From the NCBI RefSeq assembly GCF_900112935.1, contig NZ_FONM01000020.1, positions 1-53,069 on the forward strand: 53,069 bases of DNA, read 5' to 3'. Below, piece by piece: positions 370 through 7,797 of the stretch (positions within the stretch are counted from its first letter, which is position 1; the number at the start of each line of letters is the position of its first letter). The DNA is from Trichococcus pasteurii (GTDB lineage: Bacteria; Bacillota; Bacilli; Lactobacillales; Aerococcaceae). A program made the position numbers and the translations under genes. The notes beneath the pieces were generated by a model. The model saw only the letters and a program-made list of their open reading frames with translations, was not told where the DNA came from and ran no database searches.

Positions 370-561
370 CTATACTCTTTTTTTTACTATTCTAATAAAC
401 ATATACCAGTTAAACGCTATTCCCAGCATTAATAGTATTCCTCCAAAAATGTAAGTATTCTTACTTACGTTCTCAAGGTAACCTAATAAGAAAATAAAAA
501 CTAAAGAAATGAGCACTATTCCAAACATCAAATTAACAAATATATAAAGTGATTTTTTCAT
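370..561 (-). CDS. Small two-helix membrane protein (unrecognised, immunity-like)
   Basis: A 63-residue protein beginning MKKSLYIFVNLMFGIV. The start at 561 is chosen because GGAGG stands eight bases before it; an upstream in-frame start at 576 has no such site. Two hydrophobic stretches (about residues 4-24 and 36-57) predict two membrane helices with basic ends, closing with IRIVKKRV. It follows the FtsX-type permease by 49 bases in the same direction and is probably the last gene of that operon. Size, hydrophobicity and charge resemble small immunity proteins of circular bacteriocin loci, but I recognise no family, so that role is only inferred. Confidence 0.6.
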   Translation of the reverse strand: MKKSLYIFVNLMFGIVLISLVFIFLLGYLENVSKNTYIFGGILLMLGIAFNWYMFIRIVKKRV

Positions 562-610
562 ACGTCCTACCTCCAAATATTCAGTGTCACCTAAAATGGC
601 ACCTCTTGGA

Positions 611-1810
611 TTATCTTAATGTTTCGATCAGGTCTTTTTTAGCAGCTGCTGAAGCAGGCATGACAGAAAAAATCAAACCGATCCCAGTCGATACACTTAT
701 GGCTAAAAACACAGTGAAAAATTCAATTGAAATTGGAATGTCAATGATGGATCCAATGATGTAAGCCAAACCGATGCCTACAATATAGCCCACAATCCCT
801 CCAAACAAGGTCAGTGTGACGCCCTCCAAAAGAAATTGCATCCGAATGGAATTTTGGGTCGCTCCCAGCGCACGTCGAATCCCAATCTCCTTTGTCCTTT
901 CTGAGACAGAAATGTACATCATATTCATGACACCTACACCTGCAATAAATAGTGATATGCCAGCAACTGCTGAAATAAATACGGTGATTGTCCGGAGAAT
1001 TTTACTGATCCCGTCCGTTAATAAGGCGGTATCGAATACTTGATACTCACCAAAAGCTTTCATTGCGCCCTTTTCCTCGAGTTGTTCAATCACATCCATT
1101 GTCACGGAACTAGGAGACACCCCTTTTTCTAAGGTTACGGTCAAGGAAGATTTTTCAGCAGTCTCATTAAAATAGTTCAGATATGTTTTTTTGGGAATTT
1201 GAATGTTGCTTTCTGGCATAGAAAACATGCTTTCTGACTCCGAGCCTCGATAAATCCCAATTATTTTAAATAGATGGCCTTCTAATTCAATACCACGATC
1301 CAATGCATTTTCAACACTTCCATACATCTCTTTTGCGGTAACAGAATCTATCATAGCAACTTTACCCAGTGTCTCGTTTTCATACGAGGTTAGCTGGCGT
1401 CCAGCGATGGGCTCCTTACCCAGATCATTTATTAAAGAAACTTGTTTATTTTGTTTTTTGCCTTTAATATAGATACTTTTATAAATGTTCGAATAATCTG
1501 GGTCAGGGTAATTTGCGGATTGTACACCCTCAACTTGCTTTACGGTTGCAATGTCTACATCTGTGAAATAATCCAAACTGCTAGAGTTCAGACTATCGTT
1601 ACTTGGGGCATAATTTACTTGTATGGTTACTTCATCCGTTTCACCATTGGTTAAATTCTTTAACGTTTCTTTCTCAAATCCGCGACCGATTGATAAAATA
1701 GTGATGACGGAGGCAATCCCAATAACAATGCCAAATATTGTTAACAGGCTTCGTTTTCTGTTTTTTAAGATTGCTTTAGTAGCAGTTCGCCAATTAACGT
1801 ATATGTTCAT
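611..1810 (-). CDS. ABC transporter permease, MacB/FtsX type (AS-48H-like position)
   Basis: A 399-residue membrane subunit with one N-terminal helix (about 20-42, LLTIFGIVIGIASVITI), a large extracellular MacB_PCD-type domain (about 45-260) and three C-terminal helices of the FtsX fold, including the conserved SERTKEIGIRRALGA loop near 310. Such permeases act with an ATPase and a membrane fusion protein to drive export or to expel antimicrobial peptides from the membrane. It overlaps the ATPase gene by four bases (ATGA), implying translational coupling. The order E-F-G-H matches the accessory immunity transporter of circular bacteriocin loci; that function is inferred from gene order only. 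Confidence 0.85.
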   Translation of the reverse strand: MNIYVNWRTATKAILKNRKRSLLTIFGIVIGIASVITILSIGRGFEKETLKNLTNGETDEVTIQVNYAPSNDSLNSSSLDYFTDVDIATVKQVEGVQSANYPDPDYSNIYKSIYIKGKKQNKQVSLINDLGKEPIAGRQLTSYENETLGKVAMIDSVTAKEMYGSVENALDRGIELEGHLFKIIGIYRGSESESMFSMPESNIQIPKKTYLNYFNETAEKSSLTVTLEKGVSPSSVTMDVIEQLEEKGAMKAFGEYQVFDTALLTDGISKILRTITVFISAVAGISLFIAGVGVMNMMYISVSERTKEIGIRRALGATQNSIRMQFLLEGVTLTLFGGIVGYIVGIGLAYIIGSIIDIPISIEFFTVFLAISVSTGIGLIFSVMPASAAAKKDLIETLR

Positions 1811-2490
1811 TGGCGTAACGCCTTATCTTCAATAATCTCACCATCGCGAATACTTATTAATCTTGAACAATAAGGGACCATATCAGGGTTATGTGTAACG
1901 AGAATAATCGTAACCTGATCTTGGGTATTCAAATCCACAAATAACTTCATAATTTCCTCAGAAGTATGCGAATCCAATGCCCCCGTTGGCTCATCCGCAA
2001 TGAGGAATTTAGGTTGGTTGATCAACGCTCTGGCAATTGCCACTCGCTGCTGTTGACCGCCAGATAATTGTTTCAGGTGTTTATCCGCCTTATCGGCTAG
2101 GCCAACTTTTTTCAAAACAGCCATTACCTTTTCTTCTGTTTGATGAAATTTATAGCCATTATAAAGCAAGGGTAATTCAACATTTTCAAAAACAGTATTA
2201 TTTTCGATCAAGCTGAAATTTTGAAACACAAAGCCCACAGTTTGATTCCGGATTTTTGAGAGGATTTCATCGGAAGAAGTCAATAAAGCCTTTCCCTCGA
2301 ATAAGTACTGTCCTTCGAATTGTTTATCGATGAATCCTAGTAAATTAATTAAGGTTGATTTGCCCGATCCCGATGGACCCATAATGGCAATCATTTCACC
2401 TGGAGCAATCGCCAGATTAATATTTTTTAGGACATGCAGGCTTTCTTCATCGTTCTTATAGTATTTATTCACATTAACCAAACTGATCAT
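1807..2490 (-). CDS. ABC transporter ATP-binding protein, MacB/LolD type (AS-48G-like position)
   Basis: A 227-residue ATPase, a usual length for the LolD/MacB class. Walker A is GPSGSGKST near residue 39, the Q-loop lies in VFQNFSL, the signature is LSGGQQQRV near 143, and Walker B is LIADEPTGALD near 165, followed by the switch histidine in VTHN. It sits between the fusion protein, with no gap, and the permease, with a four-base overlap, so the three form one tripartite unit. It energises the FtsX-type permease. The substrate is unknown; a bacteriocin-like peptide is suggested by the neighbourhood. Confidence 0.9.
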   Translation of the reverse strand: MISLVNVNKYYKNDEESLHVLKNINLAIAPGEMIAIMGPSGSGKSTLINLLGFIDKQFEGQYLFEGKALLTSSDEILSKIRNQTVGFVFQNFSLIENNTVFENVELPLLYNGYKFHQTEEKVMAVLKKVGLADKADKHLKQLSGGQQQRVAIARALINQPKFLIADEPTGALDSHTSEEIMKLFVDLNTQDQVTIILVTHNPDMVPYCSRLISIRDGEIIEDKALRQ

Positions 2491-3735
2491 CTAATTCACC
2501 ATCACTTCTTGGCCGTCTTTTAAATCTTGGGACGGATTGGAAATAATTCGATCTTTTTCTTTTAATCCCTCTGTGACAACAAAAACACCGTCTCTATTTT
2601 CTGACAGGATTGGCTGTTTTTTGACAGTTCCTTTGGAATAGACAAAAACATACTGCTTATCCTCTTCGTTCAGGATTGCCTTTTCGGGTATACGCAGTTC
2701 ATTAACGGGTACATAAATTTGGCAACTATACCCATATTGTAAATTTTCTGATGGTTTTACTTTGAAGGAATAATTTGCCACATTAGATTGTGCCGTCGCA
2801 GTCCCCTCAGTAGCCGTAGACTCCGGCAATATACTGACTTCTGTAATCGTACCTGCAATTTTTTTATTACTGTTCAGCAATTGGATTTCCACAGCTTGAT
2901 CTGTTGCTAAGTGTCTGTAATCATACTCGGAAACTAATGCTTTTATGATCGTGTCTTTGCCTAAAATCTTAATAACGGGAACACTCGCATTTGTTTTCCC
3001 TTTCGGTTCCACAATGGCGGTTCCGTCAGTTGTCGCTGCTACATTTGTTGTAATTTTATTCTTGGCAAGTTCCATGTTTTGAGTGGAAGTGGATAAATCC
3101 AAGTTTGCGGAATCCAGTGCCTGCTGCGCTTGTGAGATGACTTCTTCCTGAGAATAAATAGCTTCTTTATACTGATCCATTTTAGCTTGTTCTTCTTGGC
3201 GAATGGTTTGACCTTCCATTGAATCGGCATCAGCATTATTGAATATACTTAATGCTTCATTCAAACTATTCCGGATATTTTGTTTTTTTGTATACGTGTT
3301 GTCCAGATTTTCTTGTGCATTATTCACCGCTAAAGCTAGTTTATCGAGCGTTTGTTGCTGTTCCGTTATTTGATCTTGTACGGTTTCGTTTTGATAAACC
3401 AAGACTACCGTGTCTGCACTGATCTCTTGATTATTGGTTACTAAAATGTCAGAAACCTCGCCCTTTGTCTGATCAAAATAGAATTCCTCTACATTTTGAG
3501 CCGCAACGGATCCATTAAAAATTAAATCATCGGCTTTTTTTATCGTTACCGCGTCATAGGAAGCCACTGCAGGTTCCTGCTGCTGTTTTTGTTTGAAAAA
3601 AAATGCCGTACTGATCGCTAAAATGGCGATCACTCCCCATACGGCACTAAAGATTATGCGCTTCTTTTTGGATAGTGGATTCATTTTAAAGCCTTTTTTA
3701 ATGTCGTGCTCTTCCTTTAGCTTGTCTCTCTTCAT
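2491..3735 (-). CDS. Membrane fusion protein of an ABC exporter (HlyD/MacA family, AS-48F-like position)
   Basis: A 414-residue membrane-anchored adaptor. A basic cytoplasmic N-terminus is followed by one helix (about 25-47, RIIFSAVWGVIAILAIS), a barrel-sandwich half, a long coiled coil (about 115-215, rich in Q, N, E and heptad leucines), the second lipoyl half and a C-terminal beta domain. The start at 3735 is supported by GAGG seven bases upstream. Its stop is adjacent to the ATPase start. In Gram-positives these proteins link permease and ATPase to extracellular substrate handling. It is intact in length and shows no frameshift. Confidence 0.85.
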   Translation of the reverse strand: MKRDKLKEEHDIKKGFKMNPLSKKKRIIFSAVWGVIAILAISTAFFFKQKQQQEPAVASYDAVTIKKADDLIFNGSVAAQNVEEFYFDQTKGEVSDILVTNNQEISADTVVLVYQNETVQDQITEQQQTLDKLALAVNNAQENLDNTYTKKQNIRNSLNEALSIFNNADADSMEGQTIRQEEQAKMDQYKEAIYSQEEVISQAQQALDSANLDLSTSTQNMELAKNKITTNVAATTDGTAIVEPKGKTNASVPVIKILGKDTIIKALVSEYDYRHLATDQAVEIQLLNSNKKIAGTITEVSILPESTATEGTATAQSNVANYSFKVKPSENLQYGYSCQIYVPVNELRIPEKAILNEEDKQYVFVYSKGTVKKQPILSENRDGVFVVTEGLKEKDRIISNPSQDLKDGQEVMVN

Positions 3736-3737
3736 TT

Positions 3738-4235
3738 CTACGCCTCTGTTTCGGCTTTAAATAGGTAGATTATGGACAAAATCGCTGGTAGGGAAACAAG
3801 CGCTTGTAGACCAATACTTACGATCGAGATCATGCTGGCAAATTCGGTAAATCCTTGAATTTCTATTTTGGGAGTGAACAGCAAGGAATAAATAATCCCA
3901 GTTACGATCCAAAATAAATGGAGGTAGTAAGGCGTTTTTGCAGTTGCGACGCCTTCTTTTAGTTTTTTATGTGCAGAGATGAGCATAATCAGGATTGTAA
4001 TCGAGATGATTACGCCAATAACGGCATAAGCTTTTGTTCCTATACTATTTGCTTGTTCATATAATTGCGTGGCTGAAGATCCGTAGACGGCTTCTGTGTA
4101 GAGCGATTTGTCAGGATTTAAGACTCCCGCTAGCCCTATAATTGATGTGAGCAGCCCCAGAGCTTTTAAAACTAATAACACCATATTCCAATTTTTAGCC
4201 TTTTTAAGATAATGCGGTTTGTCTTTTGTTTTCAT
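3738..4235 (-). CDS. Four-helix membrane protein, AS-48E/CclE-like position
   Basis: A protein of 165 residues from the ATG at 4235 (an in-frame GTG at 4247 lies too close to AAAAGG to be the start). Four hydrophobic segments are seen, around 20-40, 70-92, 105-125 and 133-158, with basic loops such as AHKKLKEG. It directly precedes the fusion protein (two-base gap). In enterocin AS-48 and carnocyclin loci a membrane protein of about this size opens the EFGH accessory operon that increases self-immunity. I assign it by position, size and topology, not by recognised motifs, so it could be another small membrane protein. Confidence 0.6.
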   Translation of the reverse strand: MKTKDKPHYLKKAKNWNMVLLVLKALGLLTSIIGLAGVLNPDKSLYTEAVYGSSATQLYEQANSIGTKAYAVIGVIISITILIMLISAHKKLKEGVATAKTPYYLHLFWIVTGIIYSLLFTPKIEIQGFTEFASMISIVSIGLQALVSLPAILSIIYLFKAETEA

Positions 4236-4356
4236 TTTTAGATACACACCTTTTCATTGATATATTTTAACTCAACTTTCGCACCTTGAGAACGAGTTCA
4301 AAAAATTGATATAACAACGTTTCTGTTTATAAATTTATGCATTATACTCTGTTACC

Positions 4357-4578
4357 TTATGAAATCAGCATCCAATTTTTATCAAATATATGTGAGTTCC
4401 CTTTTTCGTATCCTAATTGTCCAGTAATCACATTTATTAGTGTAGATTTACCAGCACCAGATGGCCCTAAAAATCCAAAAATTTCATTTTTCTTAATAGA
4501 AATGTTCAAATCATTCAAAGCTATATAATTTCCGTATTTTTTGGTAAGGTTACTAACCTCAATTATCGTATTATTCAT
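4357..4578 (-). pseudogene. ABC transporter ATPase, 3'-truncated
   Basis: The frame opens [20 protein letters not shown] and reads a normal ATPase N-terminus with Walker [10 protein letters not shown] near residue 39. After [16 protein letters not shown] it runs into WMLIS and a stop, giving 73 residues instead of about 210-230. Q-loop, signature and Walker B are absent, and none continues in another frame before the next gene. A good ribosome site (GGAGG) precedes the ATG. The remains fit the DrrA/AS-48D-like exporter ATPase of a circular bacteriocin locus, cut by a deletion near 4357. It cannot hydrolyse ATP. Confidence 0.75.
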
Positions 4579-4592
4579 TTTCCCCTCCTGAG

Positions 4593-4745
4593 TTACTGAA
4601 AATAGTGATAAATAACTATAAATAATGAAATTATTAAGATAGATATGAGAGAAGATATTTCATTTGAGAAATATTTACGAGCAAAAAATGTAATAATAAA
4701 AAAAACTAATACAAATATGAATATAATAATGTTACTTTTTTTCAA
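4593..4745 (-). CDS. Small hydrophobic protein, candidate circular-bacteriocin immunity protein
   Basis: A 50-residue frame begins with TTG at 4745, five bases after AGGAGGTG. It reads [18 protein letters not shown], then [13 protein letters not shown] and a second hydrophobic run ending VIYHYFQ. Two membrane helices with a short basic loop result. The stop is 14 bases before the truncated ATPase, so the two were co-transcribed. In carnocyclin A the immunity gene (about 53 codons, hydrophobic, basic) stands directly before the ABC ATPase gene. The arrangement is the same here, which suggests immunity. The weak point is the TTG start and the lack of a specific motif. Confidence 0.55.
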
Positions 4746-4863
4746 AATTAACACCTCCTAAATATTTAATAATATATATATTTATTAAGTATAATCCCAA
4801 TAACGAAAATAATAGAATCATTTGAACGACTAACATATTAATAAAAGGGGTTATTTTAATGGT
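4732..4863 (-). pseudogene. C-terminal scrap of a hydrophobic membrane protein
   Basis: An open stretch without its own ribosome site reads through an internal ATG (4836) as MLVVQMILLFSLLGLYL and ends GGVNFEKK, overlapping the start of the 50-residue gene by 14 bases. Upstream the frame is closed at 4864. Only one helix and a tail remain. In circular bacteriocin loci a SpoIIM/DUF95 membrane protein usually stands near this place, so this may be its last residues. The segment is too short to confirm, and it could be a chance open frame in AT-rich DNA. Confidence 0.3.
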
Positions 4864-4873
4864 TTATTGACTT

Positions 4874-4978
4874 ATGAATAGATTAAAAATTGAAAAAAAT
4901 ATCCCCGGTGTGTATATTGTCGAAAAGATGTTTAATCAATGTTTCCCCTCCCACACACATCCAGATTATAGTTGCTAA
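4874..4978 (+). pseudogene. Possible N-terminal remnant of an AraC-type regulator
   Basis: A 34-codon frame reads MNRLKIEKNIPGVYIVEK, then FPSHTHPDYSC and stop. The (R/S)HTHxxY pattern after an FP is typical of the cupin sensing domain at the start of AraC-family regulators. There is no convincing ribosome binding site and nothing recognisable follows in any frame. It is best seen as a scrap left by rearrangement next to the decayed bacteriocin locus. Confidence is low because the match rests on about ten residues. Confidence 0.25.
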
Positions 4979-4988
4979 TAATCCTACT

Positions 4989-5192
4989 TCAGGCTGAATA
5001 GTAATATATTTGCAGAAAACCAAAATCTAATAGTTTATCGTTCATATATTTTACATATTCTGATATACTGATAAAGTCAAACGCTCCCATTACATCGTGA
5101 CAAAAGAATGGAACGCTAACAGACTGTTGGAAACCTAAAATTGTACTTTTTTCTGCCACGCCAGAAATTTCTTTATGCAAAACCATGTGCAT
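4989..5192 (-). CDS. Unrecognised 67-residue open frame
   Basis: The frame begins MHMVLHKEISGVAEKS and ends FLQIYYYSA. It has a mixed, soluble-looking composition (FFCHDVMGAFDF in the middle), no membrane helix and no good ribosome site before the first ATG. It lies between the regulator scrap and the tiny divergent frame next to rgg. I do not recognise it. It may be a fragment of a larger gene lost by deletion, or not be translated. Confidence 0.25.
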   Translation of the reverse strand: MHMVLHKEISGVAEKSTILGFQQSVSVPFFCHDVMGAFDFISISEYVKYMNDKLLDFGFLQIYYYSA

Positions 5193-5206: not shown

Positions 5207-5239
5207 TTATAGAATTAAAAAAATCATAAATCCCCACAT
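5207..5239 (-). other. Ten-codon hydrophobic open frame divergent to rgg
   Basis: On the minus strand AGGAGG stands seven bases before an ATG that opens MWGFMIFLIL and stops. The strong ribosome site is conspicuous. Rgg regulators are often controlled by short hydrophobic pheromone peptides (SHP) encoded divergently next to rgg, usually 20 or more codons. This one is shorter than known examples and could equally be the start of a gene destroyed by deletion. Confidence 0.3.
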
Positions 5240-5370
5240 AGTAATGCCTCCTAAATAATATTGTTATAAGGAGTATATTTTTACATGGGTGATTAACGGA
5301 AAAATGACACGAACAAGAAACTTTTGTTGCAAAGATGAGACGTTTTATAGTGCTGATAAAAGGAGTTCTT

Positions 5371-6240
5371 ATGGAAATTTATGAAGCAGTCGCAACTCTT
5401 AGAAAAGATAAGAATATAAAAATTGAAGAAGCGATTGGCAACAGTATGTCCAGAGCCAGCTTTAATCGTTATATTAACGGGAAAACTGATTTGTATACCT
5501 CGCATTTTTTGGAACTATTGGAAAAATTACATGTAAGCTTGGAAGAAATTGAATTTATGTGTAATGGGTATACAGATAACGTTGAAAAACAATTAATGAA
5601 AGAATTGAAGCATGCGTTTGAAGATCAGAATATTCATGAGCTTAATTTTATACTGCAGCATTGCCGGAACGAGTATGCCCTCGACAAAAATGTATTATAT
5701 AGTCATTTGGCCTCACTGACAGAGGTCCTTCTGGCAAGGCTTGAACATAAAAATATAGATCTTAAAGAGAATGAATTATATAAATACCTGGTCAAAACGG
5801 AAACATGGACGCGTTACGAACTTGTCATGTTCAATAATTCTATGTTCTATTTTGATGCCGAAGCTTTAAAACAAATATTGCCAAAAGCAATCAACAAGTT
5901 AGCTTACTATAAAGAAATAAATCCTTATGCAAACGAAGGATTCAGACTACTAATAAACGCCATCATTGCATTCATCAGTAAAAATGAAATTCATCAGGCG
6001 CTGATATATATTCGTATATTGGAAAAACATCCTTTGAATGAAGATCAAGCTTATGAAGCTCTCTTACAGAAATTTTTGATTGGGGTTAAACTCATTTTGA
6101 TTGATGACTCTAAGGGTGATGAAGTCGTTAAGGATTGTATTCAGACCATGCAATTCTTAAATATGGAAAAGATGGCAATTATGTCTACTGGGCTCATAGA
6201 ACATATATTAGAAAACAAACAAAAAAATCAGCTGCAGTGA
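5371..6240 (+). CDS. Rgg/GadR/MutR-family transcriptional regulator
   Basis: A protein of 289 residues from the ATG at 5371, chosen because AAAGGAG lies five bases upstream. An N-terminal helix-turn-helix (about 1-60, with SMSRASFNRYINGKTDL as recognition part) is followed by an all-helical Rgg C-terminal domain built from TPR-like repeats, where family members bind short peptides. Rgg proteins commonly control adjacent bacteriocin or competence genes. Here it stands just upstream of, and divergent to, the decayed bacteriocin cluster, which may have been its target. Length is typical (about 285-300) and the gene appears intact. Confidence 0.85.
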   Translation: MEIYEAVATLRKDKNIKIEEAIGNSMSRASFNRYINGKTDLYTSHFLELLEKLHVSLEEIEFMCNGYTDNVEKQLMKELKHAFEDQNIHELNFILQHCRNEYALDKNVLYSHLASLTEVLLARLEHKNIDLKENELYKYLVKTETWTRYELVMFNNSMFYFDAEALKQILPKAINKLAYYKEINPYANEGFRLLINAIIAFISKNEIHQALIYIRILEKHPLNEDQAYEALLQKFLIGVKLILIDDSKGDEVVKDCIQTMQFLNMEKMAIMSTGLIEHILENKQKNQLQ

Positions 6241-6258
6241 TCACTCTGCAGCTGATTT
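6225..6258. terminator. Bidirectional terminator between rgg and the histidine kinase
   Basis: A perfect 13-bp stem, AAATCAGCTGCAG at 6225-6237 and CTGCAGCTGATTT at 6246-6258, has an eight-base loop. T-runs flank it on both strands, so it serves both convergent genes. It overlaps the rgg stop codon. Confidence 0.9.
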
Positions 6259-7797
6259 TTATTGTTTCAGGTCAAATAGAAAGGTGGAGCCTTTTCCCGG
6301 GGTGCTTTCGACCGACAAAACGATGCCGTGGCGATCGGCTATCTGCTTGGCGACGGCCAAACCCAGACCTGTGCCTTGCTTGTTGCTTTCTTCGTTTGAT
6401 TTGAAGAACTTTTCGAAGATGTATGGTTGATCCTTTTCCGGGATTCCTGGCCCGTTGTCAGTGATAGCCAATCGGCAGCCCTCACCTGCGCCAGTCAACG
6501 TGATCCGGATTTCACTCTTTTCGGCTGAAAATTTGACGGCATTCTCCATCACGGCAAGCAGCATCTGCCGCAGCCGGGTATAGTCGCCCATCAGCATGAA
6601 CGTCAGCGGCTCCTTTGTGAAAGTCAGCGTGATTTCCTTTTCCCTGGCGATGTAGCGCACGGAACGGATGGCGTTCTCCACGACATCCACAAAATTCAAG
6701 GAACTCATCTCCATTTGATAGTCCGGGTTCTGCAGCCGCGACAGCTCCAGCAGATCGTTGATCATCCGCTCCAGATGGATGCTTTCGGTCAACATCTGTT
6801 GGTAGTATTCATCGATTTTGGCGGGATCCTCGACGACATGATCGTTCAAGGCCTCCAGCGAGCCGCGGATGACCGTGACCGGCGTGCGCAATTCATGGGA
6901 AATGCTCGTGATGAAATCCTTGCGCATCTTATCCAACTTGGCGCTTTCTTGCGCAGCCTCAGCCAACTTGTCCGCCAGGATATCGATGTTGGCGGCAAGC
7001 GAACCCATTTCATCATTTTGAATGATCCCCGTTTGGGCTTCGTAATGGTTATCCGCCAACTGCTGTGTCGTTTCTTCCATCCTCTTCAGCGGCTGGATGA
7101 ACCGTTTCGCCAACAGGACCGCTATCCCGACCGCGGCGATCAAAGCCAAAGCCAAGCTGATTCCCAAAGTCGAAAATCCCGACCGCACGGCAGCCTGCAT
7201 GTTTGCGATATAGTCGTGCAAAAGGACCGCAGCGATAACCTCCCCTTCTGCGGAGAGCACCGGCGCCCCGACCGTGATGGAGGTATCCTCCAACAACGGG
7301 CTGAAGCCTTCGCTGAAGGCGACGTCCCCTTCGAATACCTCATCGACAAGCGCAAGCGCAGCGCTTGGTAGTTCGGCATAGGTGATCGCTTTTTTGCCGG
7401 TTCCGACACTGATTGTCTCTGCGGATTGGTCGACGATCCATACCTCGCCCATCGCGATATCCTGAATGGCCGTGATATAGGTGTTGTATCCGCTCGTATT
7501 GTTGCGCCCGGTTGTCCCCGTCGCCCCAATTTGTGCGAGCAGGGCAGTTCCTGTTTGTTTACCGTTGGCACTGCCCTTTGCAATGACCGGAACCTCATCT
7601 AAAGCGGTACTCCCGTCTTCCAAATAATCCGCCACGCCGGCAGCAATCGCCTCAGCCCGTTCCTGCATATCCGCCCGGTAAATTTGTTCGGTATGACGGG
7701 TGAACAGCAGCAGGAAGGCCCCTCCGACAACCAAGGAAAACAGCAAGATGACGGAAGTGAAATAGAGGACCAGTTTGCGGGTGATCTTATACTTCAT
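6259..7797 (-). CDS. Sensor histidine kinase
   Basis: A 512-residue membrane kinase. Helix 1 is at about 10-32 and helix 2 at about 200-225, enclosing a 165-residue extracellular sensing domain. HAMP follows (about 226-280), then the dimerisation domain with the phosphorylated histidine in SISHELRTP near residue 300, and an ATPase domain with N-box MENAVKFS, DNGPGIPE and GTGLGLAV. It overlaps the response regulator gene by 11 bases, so the pair is translationally coupled and will signal together. The signal is unknown. Its GC content is clearly higher than that of the accessory DNA to the left. Confidence 0.93.
   Translation of the reverse strand: MKYKITRKLVLYFTSVILLFSLVVGGAFLLLFTRHTEQIYRADMQERAEAIAAGVADYLEDGSTALDEVPVIAKGSANGKQTGTALLAQIGATGTTGRNNTSGYNTYITAIQDIAMGEVWIVDQSAETISVGTGKKAITYAELPSAALALVDEVFEGDVAFSEGFSPLLEDTSITVGAPVLSAEGEVIAAVLLHDYIANMQAAVRSGFSTLGISLALALIAAVGIAVLLAKRFIQPLKRMEETTQQLADNHYEAQTGIIQNDEMGSLAANIDILADKLAEAAQESAKLDKMRKDFITSISHELRTPVTVIRGSLEALNDHVVEDPAKIDEYYQQMLTESIHLERMINDLLELSRLQNPDYQMEMSSLNFVDVVENAIRSVRYIAREKEITLTFTKEPLTFMLMGDYTRLRQMLLAVMENAVKFSAEKSEIRITLTGAGEGCRLAITDNGPGIPEKDQPYIFEKFFKSNEESNKQGTGLGLAVAKQIADRHGIVLSVESTPGKGSTFLFDLKQ

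Follow-up and report, generated by a model that had tools for sequence, protein, structure and literature searches.

Why would a bacterium keep a complete pump of the kind that confers bacteriocin immunity when no recognised bacteriocin gene lies beside it? The question is raised by a locus of Trichococcus pasteurii in which four genes, here called E, F, G and H, encode a small membrane protein, a membrane-fusion protein, an ABC (ATP-binding cassette) ATPase and a permease. The window analysed here is the complete contig C17, 53,069 bases from a 3.2-Mb genome; the exporter lies intact at positions 611–4247 on the minus strand, with all frames open and in the gene order described by a first-pass annotation made from the sequence alone. 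That annotation took the locus for the remainder of a circular-bacteriocin cluster whose producer genes had been deleted. To a different reading we give an even chance: the locus would be the resistance-only allele of an antimicrobial-peptide island on the chromosome, its immunity pump retained although no peptide is made and controlled by exchangeable peptide signalling. This reading is supported by the lack of any circular-bacteriocin or SpoIIM match in the genome and by purifying selection on EFGH. Labels beginning with G and L denote the genomes and loci compared, with G000 listed among the carriers.

A complete EFGH transporter in Trichococcus

By gene content and sequence, the locus belongs to the As-48EFGH/Mr10EFGH transporter family. 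Its proteins are 40% (E; E-value 5e-33), 39% (F), 75% (G) and 59% (H) identical to those of the Enterococcus faecalis pPD1 cluster, bearing out the first-pass assignment to an AS-48-type EFGH transporter; for the enterocin L50-type cluster of pEF1 the values are 30–31, 39, 74 and 59%. The pPD1 annotation gives a circular bacteriocin of the uberolysin/carnocyclin family, which we take to be bacteriocin 21 and identical to AS-48, followed by four EFGH-type genes. As in As-48EFGH (AS-48 Transporter-2) and the Mr10EFGH/L50 transporter, four homologous genes stand in the same order with intact frames. Those sets are on enterococcal plasmids, whereas the Trichococcus set occupies a chromosomal island with no recognised bacteriocin gene alongside. 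Plasmid records with an E relative number 17, of which 16 are from Enterococcus and 1 from Lactococcus. On the small Lactococcus raffinolactis plasmid pLraf_19_7_1 (L182), the stretch examined around an F-G-H exporter lacks any annotated bacteriocin gene, which makes this exporter a possible orphan too.

An earlier survey describes EFGH-type transporters as common to AS-48, other circular and L50-type enterocins, with orphan copies in Enterococcus, and counts G and H relatives in Trichococcus but no E, F or complete transporter (PMC10598978). What is new here is that the transporter is complete in Trichococcus, that it stands as an orphan on a defined island and that its signalling modules are exchangeable. 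The predicted mode of action is that of an AS-48/L50-type immunity transporter. Mutants retaining only as-48D1EFGH stay resistant to enterocin MR10 (PMC8306556).

Gene order and open frames are not a product of chance, because E is present in 7 of the 11 same-genus genomes sampled (our own included), F, G and H accompany it at the six other loci, and purifying selection acts on all four genes. Ratios of nonsynonymous to synonymous substitution rates (dN/dS, Nei–Gojobori) between the window and seven relatives were 0.13–0.23 for E, 0.14–0.19 for F, 0.02–0.06 for G and 0.09–0.13 for H. EFGH is under purifying selection about as strict as that on the flanking chromosomal kinase gene (0.10–0.12, three relatives), and the first-pass view that the transporter had been kept intact by selection is supported (0.02–0.23 across EFGH). 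The gene for a 63–68-aa membrane protein 3′ of H gave 0.12–0.27 (seven comparisons), and the regulator gene described below 0.05–0.07 (three relatives).

An AlphaFold model of E built from 17 sequences (predicted local distance difference test, pLDDT, 86) has four long helices, the last of them kinked, plus a short one, so that the description of E as a four-helix membrane protein holds for the model. A structure search with this model returned no Protein Data Bank (PDB) match at E 0.001. H matched MacB permeases, its wider family, and PDB entry 5xu1 (E 7e-46), the Streptococcus pneumoniae pump.

No circular-bacteriocin producer found in the genome

No circular-bacteriocin gene was found linked to the locus. 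Profile searches of the whole T. pasteurii genome gave no PF09221 or PF12173 precursor at E 1, these two being the only precursor families searched and other classes, leaderless ones included, not having been searched; SpoIIM/DUF95 had no match at E 0.01. Judged by these profiles, both the precursor gene and the SpoIIM/DUF95 protein of a circular-bacteriocin cluster appear to be missing, in agreement with the first-pass statement that no bacteriocin gene is present. The models recover their controls: PF09221 finds pPD1, and PF12173 and SpoIIM find T. alkaliphilus (SpoIIM above cut-off in G377). Matches to PF09221/PF12173 in G285 and G385 were below cut-off (E 0.17–0.58) and were set aside as chance.

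A bacteriocin gene beyond the contig end was also considered, and rejected. The window begins with the end of an IS21-family insertion sequence (IS), unmentioned at first pass, which shares 96.8% DNA identity over 316 bp with the IS21 element of Carnobacterium inhibens pWNCR47. Contig C40 of the same genome carries the other (istB) end at C40:3–351, 93% identical to pWNCR47, with a GNAT flank directly after it, and TGTGC stands on both sides of the element. We infer that C17 and C40 are joined through the IS21 element; provided that they adjoin in this way, no bacteriocin gene lies past the contig end, because C40 runs from the IS21 end into the GNAT flank.

A bacteriocin cassette in T. alkaliphilus and remnants in T. 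pasteurii

Comparison with related strains, as proposed at first pass, did uncover a circular-bacteriocin gene at this place, in T. alkaliphilus (L045), one of the eight known EFGH carriers. The cassette holds a gassericin-A-like precursor (PF12173, E 1.9e-17), a SpoIIM-like protein (E 7.9e-06; 26.3 bits against a cut-off of 26.9, and 27.1 bits with its frame neighbours), two short frames and a 53-aa protein. The circular bacteriocin of T. alkaliphilus B5 is already listed in an earlier account (PMC7132975). This gassericin A-type cluster occupies the same genomic place and is missing from the window genome.

The cassette is the best argument for the first-pass account, in which a complete circular-bacteriocin cluster stood here and its producer genes were deleted, leaving I, a piece of T and EFGH. 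In further agreement with that account, the gassericin A cluster (L187) also has a small protein followed by an ATPase, the small protein being a short, unannotated frame that lies after SpoIIM and before the ATPase. We nevertheless consider such a deletion improbable. The start of E is present in two copies, one on each side of the T. alkaliphilus cassette, which looks inserted because of the copy at its far side; this arrangement suggests that insertion beside a resident EFGH is a better account of L045 than deletion in every other case. An equally possible route would be homologous exchange, the incoming cluster bringing its own EFGH. The window genome, moreover, has no SpoIIM or precursor match. 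With the AS-48 ATPase or the window's ATPase stub as query, no ATPase was found beside the L045 cassette; GaaT was not used as query. After SpoIIM, the stretch L045:9733–10280 holds the two short frames (95 and 49 aa), and the T. alkaliphilus cluster may be inactive.

A further point against deletion comes from the DNA upstream of E, where the 50-residue hydrophobic protein and the ABC ATPase fragment noted at first pass are both present (Table 1). In local alignments the stub is 36/63 identical (57%) to a Streptococcus salivarius ABC-2 ATPase, 26/66 (39%) to GaaT and 13/50 (26%) to the AS-48 ATPase, a comparison in which the stub is short (73 aa) and circular bacteriocins are represented by GaaT and the AS-48 ATPase. 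Other plasmid ABC-2 ATPases gave 37/68 (S. parasuis) and 35/66 (S. anginosus). In an order-wide search, the joined 50-aa protein and stub hit 391 of 395 genomes at E 1e-9 and had no discriminating power; its best matches outside the genus adjoin ABC-2 permease genes in the three stretches inspected. We had considered the pair as a CclI–CclT or GaaI–GaaT remnant and dropped this in view of the stub's greater likeness to ABC-2 exporters. We infer that an exchanged cassette left behind the 50-aa gene and the ATPase stub, which are no proof of a deleted circular-bacteriocin producer.

Among the relatives, the 50-aa gene and the stub occur only in G285, at 98.6 and 99.1%. An assembly error is an unlikely cause of the truncated ATPase, since the same stub recurs in this second genome at 99%. 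A gap at the 50-aa gene in G285 coincides with a contig end, whose terminal sequence we take to be Illumina adapter, and was treated as an assembly break; over 138 bp the gene differs from that of the window by two synonymous and no replacement changes. At this place G274 has another small protein and another ATPase stub, which is shorter than that of the window. Further upstream, a remnant not noticed at first pass (window 4911–4989) is 96% identical over 79 bp to L044:1490–1568 and also matches L045; the 66-aa membrane-protein gene from which it derives is intact in G274 and G377 (from L044:1540 on the plus strand and L045:14024 on the minus strand). Phage records gave no match to the stretch 4280–4900.

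A chromosomal island with exchangeable modules

The island is bounded by the GNAT gene and a histidine-kinase gene, which end 48, 35 and 41 bp apart at the empty sites of G234, G357 and G396. In a tree of the GNAT/AraC flank these three sites form one group (99.8/98). The flank stretch 6185–7500 (1,316 bp) has near full-length matches in 10 of 13 same-genus genomes, a 136-bp match in G377 and none in G373. Placement in Trichococcus is clear from the permease, which is 93% identical in T. collinsii DSM 14526, T. alkaliphilus B5 and T. paludicola B7-2 and at most 61% in the next genera.

Two types of island carry EFGH. One pairs it with a RopB-type regulator (G000, G274, G285 and G377), the other with ComQXPA-like genes (G060, G313, G385 and T. 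paludicola L107, the last perhaps identical with G395). G361 (L069) has a regulator truncated by a premature stop or frameshift, a micro-open reading frame (micro-ORF) and a 68-aa gene, without EFGH. The 63–68-aa membrane-protein gene was seen in all examined island carriers but G274, where the contig ends first; contig ends cut several loci, including L043, L044 and L107. In the EFGH tree, G274 and G377, both of the RopB type, fall with T. paludicola of the Com type (99.4/96) and G285 with G060 (97.9/89), mixing the signalling types, so that on this tree the upstream module must have been exchanged twice or more. In L042 and L046 a regulator remnant has a 27-bp IS21 end next to it, which suggests that an IS took part. 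The pump is stable across the genus, and the producer-like cassettes and signalling modules around it change.

Some of these cassettes encode secreted or secreted-looking proteins of 150–200 aa, candidates, together with adjacent small membrane proteins, for new bacteriocin/immunity pairs. In L045:2781–3800 and L047:3535–4411 (minus strand), a 74-bp repeat, present in two copies, flanks the genes for a secreted Ala/Gly-rich protein of about 196 aa and a 79-aa membrane protein; in L047 the secreted protein is split in two frames. Further examples lie in L042:1569–2410, L069:7504–7962 and L047:14095–14592, one of them followed by an 80-aa membrane protein.

EFGH might be the immunity or export pump for this unrecognised class, of which the window genome would have lost its copy, an explanation to which we attach little probability. 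Such proteins are on the island in four of the eight EFGH carriers (L042, L045, L046 and L047) and in G361 (L069), and a 74% relative of the 79-aa membrane protein is encoded elsewhere in the T. pasteurii genome. However, no family model scored above its curated cut-off for these proteins (that of L069 has weak TolQ/ExbB-like matches), G361 has the secreted protein without EFGH, and none was found in the L043, L044 and L107 stretches, some of which are cut by contig ends. The 74% relative lies at C32:67073–67340 (L217:3105–3353) among several small membrane-protein frames, and a secreted partner was not found beside it.

Candidate peptide signalling beside the pump

Neither the Rgg/RopB-type regulator gene of the window nor the 10-aa micro-ORF divergent from it had been described at first pass. 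RopB (5dl2, E 1.5e-24) is the best specifically named PDB match of the regulator; 9lth (E 1.6e-33) is labelled only as a transcriptional regulator. The micro-ORF encodes MWGFMIFLIL in G000, G285 and G377 and the M5L form MWGFLIFLIL in G274 and G361, and the other codon differences are synonymous. As expected of leaderless communication peptides of RopB systems, an ultrasmall hydrophobic ORF with a strong ribosome-binding site stands beside the regulator (five genomes), which makes the micro-ORF a candidate leaderless-peptide signal.

A survey of RopB-clan systems describes mostly hydrophobic leaderless peptides of 8–10 aa, often near antimicrobial clusters or ABC transporters, and names Carnobacteriaceae but not Trichococcus in its main text (PMC10518010). 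The window shares with those RopB-SIP/leaderless systems the RopB-like regulator, the divergent 8–10-aa hydrophobic ORF with its strong ribosome-binding site and the ABC transporter neighbours; S. salivarius MWLILLFL, an example given there, and the window peptide both begin with MW, and a precedent exists in L. reuteri, whose RopB-clan system induces its ABC transporter (PMC10518010). Unlike in the RopB-SIP systems, the would-be target here is a bacteriocin-immunity pump.

Four Trichococcus loci instead have ComQXPA-like genes beside EFGH (L042:3630–7275, L046:7847–11491, L047:9312–12936 and L107:391–4036). The set comprises a polyprenyl synthase (PF00348, E 3.7e-09), a short ORF with NW(V/I)RKID near its end, a kinase of 652–654 aa and a LuxR-type response regulator. 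In T. collinsii (L046), comQ is split in two frames. A 2014 ComQXPA census covers Bacillus and relatives and Clostridiales, and its main text contains no word starting with 'Lactobacill' or 'Trichococcus' (PMC4008528). If the assignment is true, it would place ComQXPA-type signalling in Lactobacillales.

On the resistance-only reading, E, F, G and H would jointly take membrane-active peptides (circular, leaderless or related ones, products of neighbours) out of the cytoplasmic membrane, so that the cell would resist bacteriocins without producing them. The 10-aa peptide would be exported, re-imported and bound by the RopB-type regulator, which would switch on a divergent transcript running from the micro-ORF through the 50-aa gene to EFGH; resistance would thereby be tied to cell density or kin. 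More tentatively, as a proposal that is possible but that we would not bank on, the pump would serve no self-protection and be kept as a signal-gated resistance trait, its control having been swapped between two unrelated quorum-sensing systems, the RopB/leaderless-peptide pair (four carriers) and the ComQXPA-like genes (four), so that each sister species would turn on one and the same pump in answer to its own signal. The candidate signal is short, of defined sequence and open to synthesis, which makes quorum-sensing control of resistance alone directly testable. Bacteriocin resistance without production bears on models of microbial competition, as argued in PMC10598978.

Evidence against a resistance-only pump

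Several observations weigh against this reading, beginning with the confinement of the own-genome producer search to two precursor families. Exporters nearest to the window outside the genus come from Enterococcus, Vagococcus and Clostridioides (H 59–61%, E 45–46% in Clostridioides L083, G up to 81%) and resemble the Trichococcus pump slightly more than AS-48 does (H 59, E 40, G 75%); they are mostly in genomes without a circular-bacteriocin match, and a general defence role fits equally. In a tree of E, moreover, the AS-48 and L50 proteins join each other (support 99/96), and Trichococcus E groups with neither. The E sequence gives no guide to substrate because Trichococcus E forms its own clade, and the AS-48-like specificity implied at first pass gains no support from it; the presence of EFGH genes should not be read as a sign of an AS-48-like producer. 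Signal and pump are linked by position only, because EFGH also occurs without an intact RopB/peptide pair in view (in the ComQXPA-type carriers, the island of L107 being seen from one side). About 960 bp separate the micro-ORF from E, with remnants and promoter-like sites between (30 in the region versus 23.4 expected), and G274 has its regulator on one contig and its micro-ORF on another, with a different sequence upstream of the micro-ORF.

Part of this evidence favours another explanation, that EFGH is a general envelope-defence exporter like YknWXYZ, tied to no particular bacteriocin and with incidental neighbours; we think this on balance unlikely, though a serious contender. YknWXYZ, the Bacillus SDP efflux pump, likewise combines a small membrane protein with a membrane-fusion protein, an ATPase and a MacB-type permease and guards Bacillus against SDP (PMC4887032). 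The likeness is one of component types; Pfam Yip1, the family of the fourth YknWXYZ component, was not among the 25 of 32 families listed for 17 E proteins.

A survey of orphan transporters bears on the same point. Among 80 permease-matching loci, 26 have an E relative; leaving aside L072 and L141, we searched the whole genomes of the other 24, and pPD1 and pEF1 served as controls. At E 0.01, PF09221 matched in two genomes and PF12173 in one, and 21 of the 24 E-type EFGH genomes matched neither of these two models, the only ones used, which leaves leaderless or unrecognised bacteriocins outside the reach of the survey and lessens its force for a general exporter. Only T. alkaliphilus, of the three positive genomes, has its match within the stretch examined around EFGH. 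L080 (Enterococcus durans) bears an L50-type E. In L178 (Vagococcus allomyrinae), a distant ComQ-like stretch (26% over 184 aa) lies about 1 kb or less from two PF09221 matches.

The general-exporter explanation gains, and the resistance-only reading loses, weight from the nearest exporters outside the genus, being of the same sort, closer than AS-48 and mostly without a circular-bacteriocin match. The possibility, raised at first pass, that the best matches would be unrelated exporters is thereby borne out in part. An island that is absent from three relatives and bears toxin-like cassettes in others is, on the other hand, unlike the setting of a housekeeping gene.

Features of the locus

Coordinates are collected in Table 1.

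Table 1. Features at the start of the window, in order of position
Feature	Position	Strand	Remarks
IS21-family element end (istA start)	1–316	−	interrupts small ORF, marks contig end
63–68-aa membrane protein, 3′ of H	370–576	−	open frame
H, MacB/FtsX-type permease (As-48H-like), 399 aa	611–1810	−	PF12704 MacB_PCD E 1.8e-23; PF02687 FtsX E 2.3e-21
G, ABC ATPase (As-48G-like), 227 aa	1807–2490	−	PF00005
F, membrane-fusion protein (As-48F-like), 414 aa	2491–3735	−	TIGR01730 66 bits, below cut-off 94.9; PDB 5xu0 E 1.5e-05
E, four-helix membrane protein (As-48E/Mr10E-like), 169 aa from GTG; 165 from ATG at 4235	3738–4247	−	pPD1 E 40%
ABC-2-type exporter ATPase, N-terminal stub, 73 aa	4357–4578	−	ABC_tran E 4.8e-11
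50-aa hydrophobic protein, candidate small immunity/accessory protein	4593–4745	−	TTG start at 4745, stop at 4593, AGGAGG upstream
Remnant: upstream region and first ~29 bp of 66-aa membrane-protein gene	4911–4989	−	matches L044, L045
10-aa micro-ORF MWGFMIFLIL, divergent from regulator; candidate leaderless communication peptide	5207–5239	−	AGGAGG site
Rgg/RopB-type regulator	5335–6240	+	PF21259 E 3.1e-27; RopB 5dl2 E 1.5e-24
Terminator-like hairpin, island edge, both strands readable	6223–6260		hairpins 2 versus shuffled mean 3.8, number not above chance
Histidine kinase, conserved chromosomal flank	6259–7797	−	flank match in most same-genus genomes

A single-sequence model of the regulator (pLDDT 51) was not used. 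PADLOC returned no match for E, the regulator or the 68-aa protein; G and H had ATPase- and permease-type matches, and F had a weak match.

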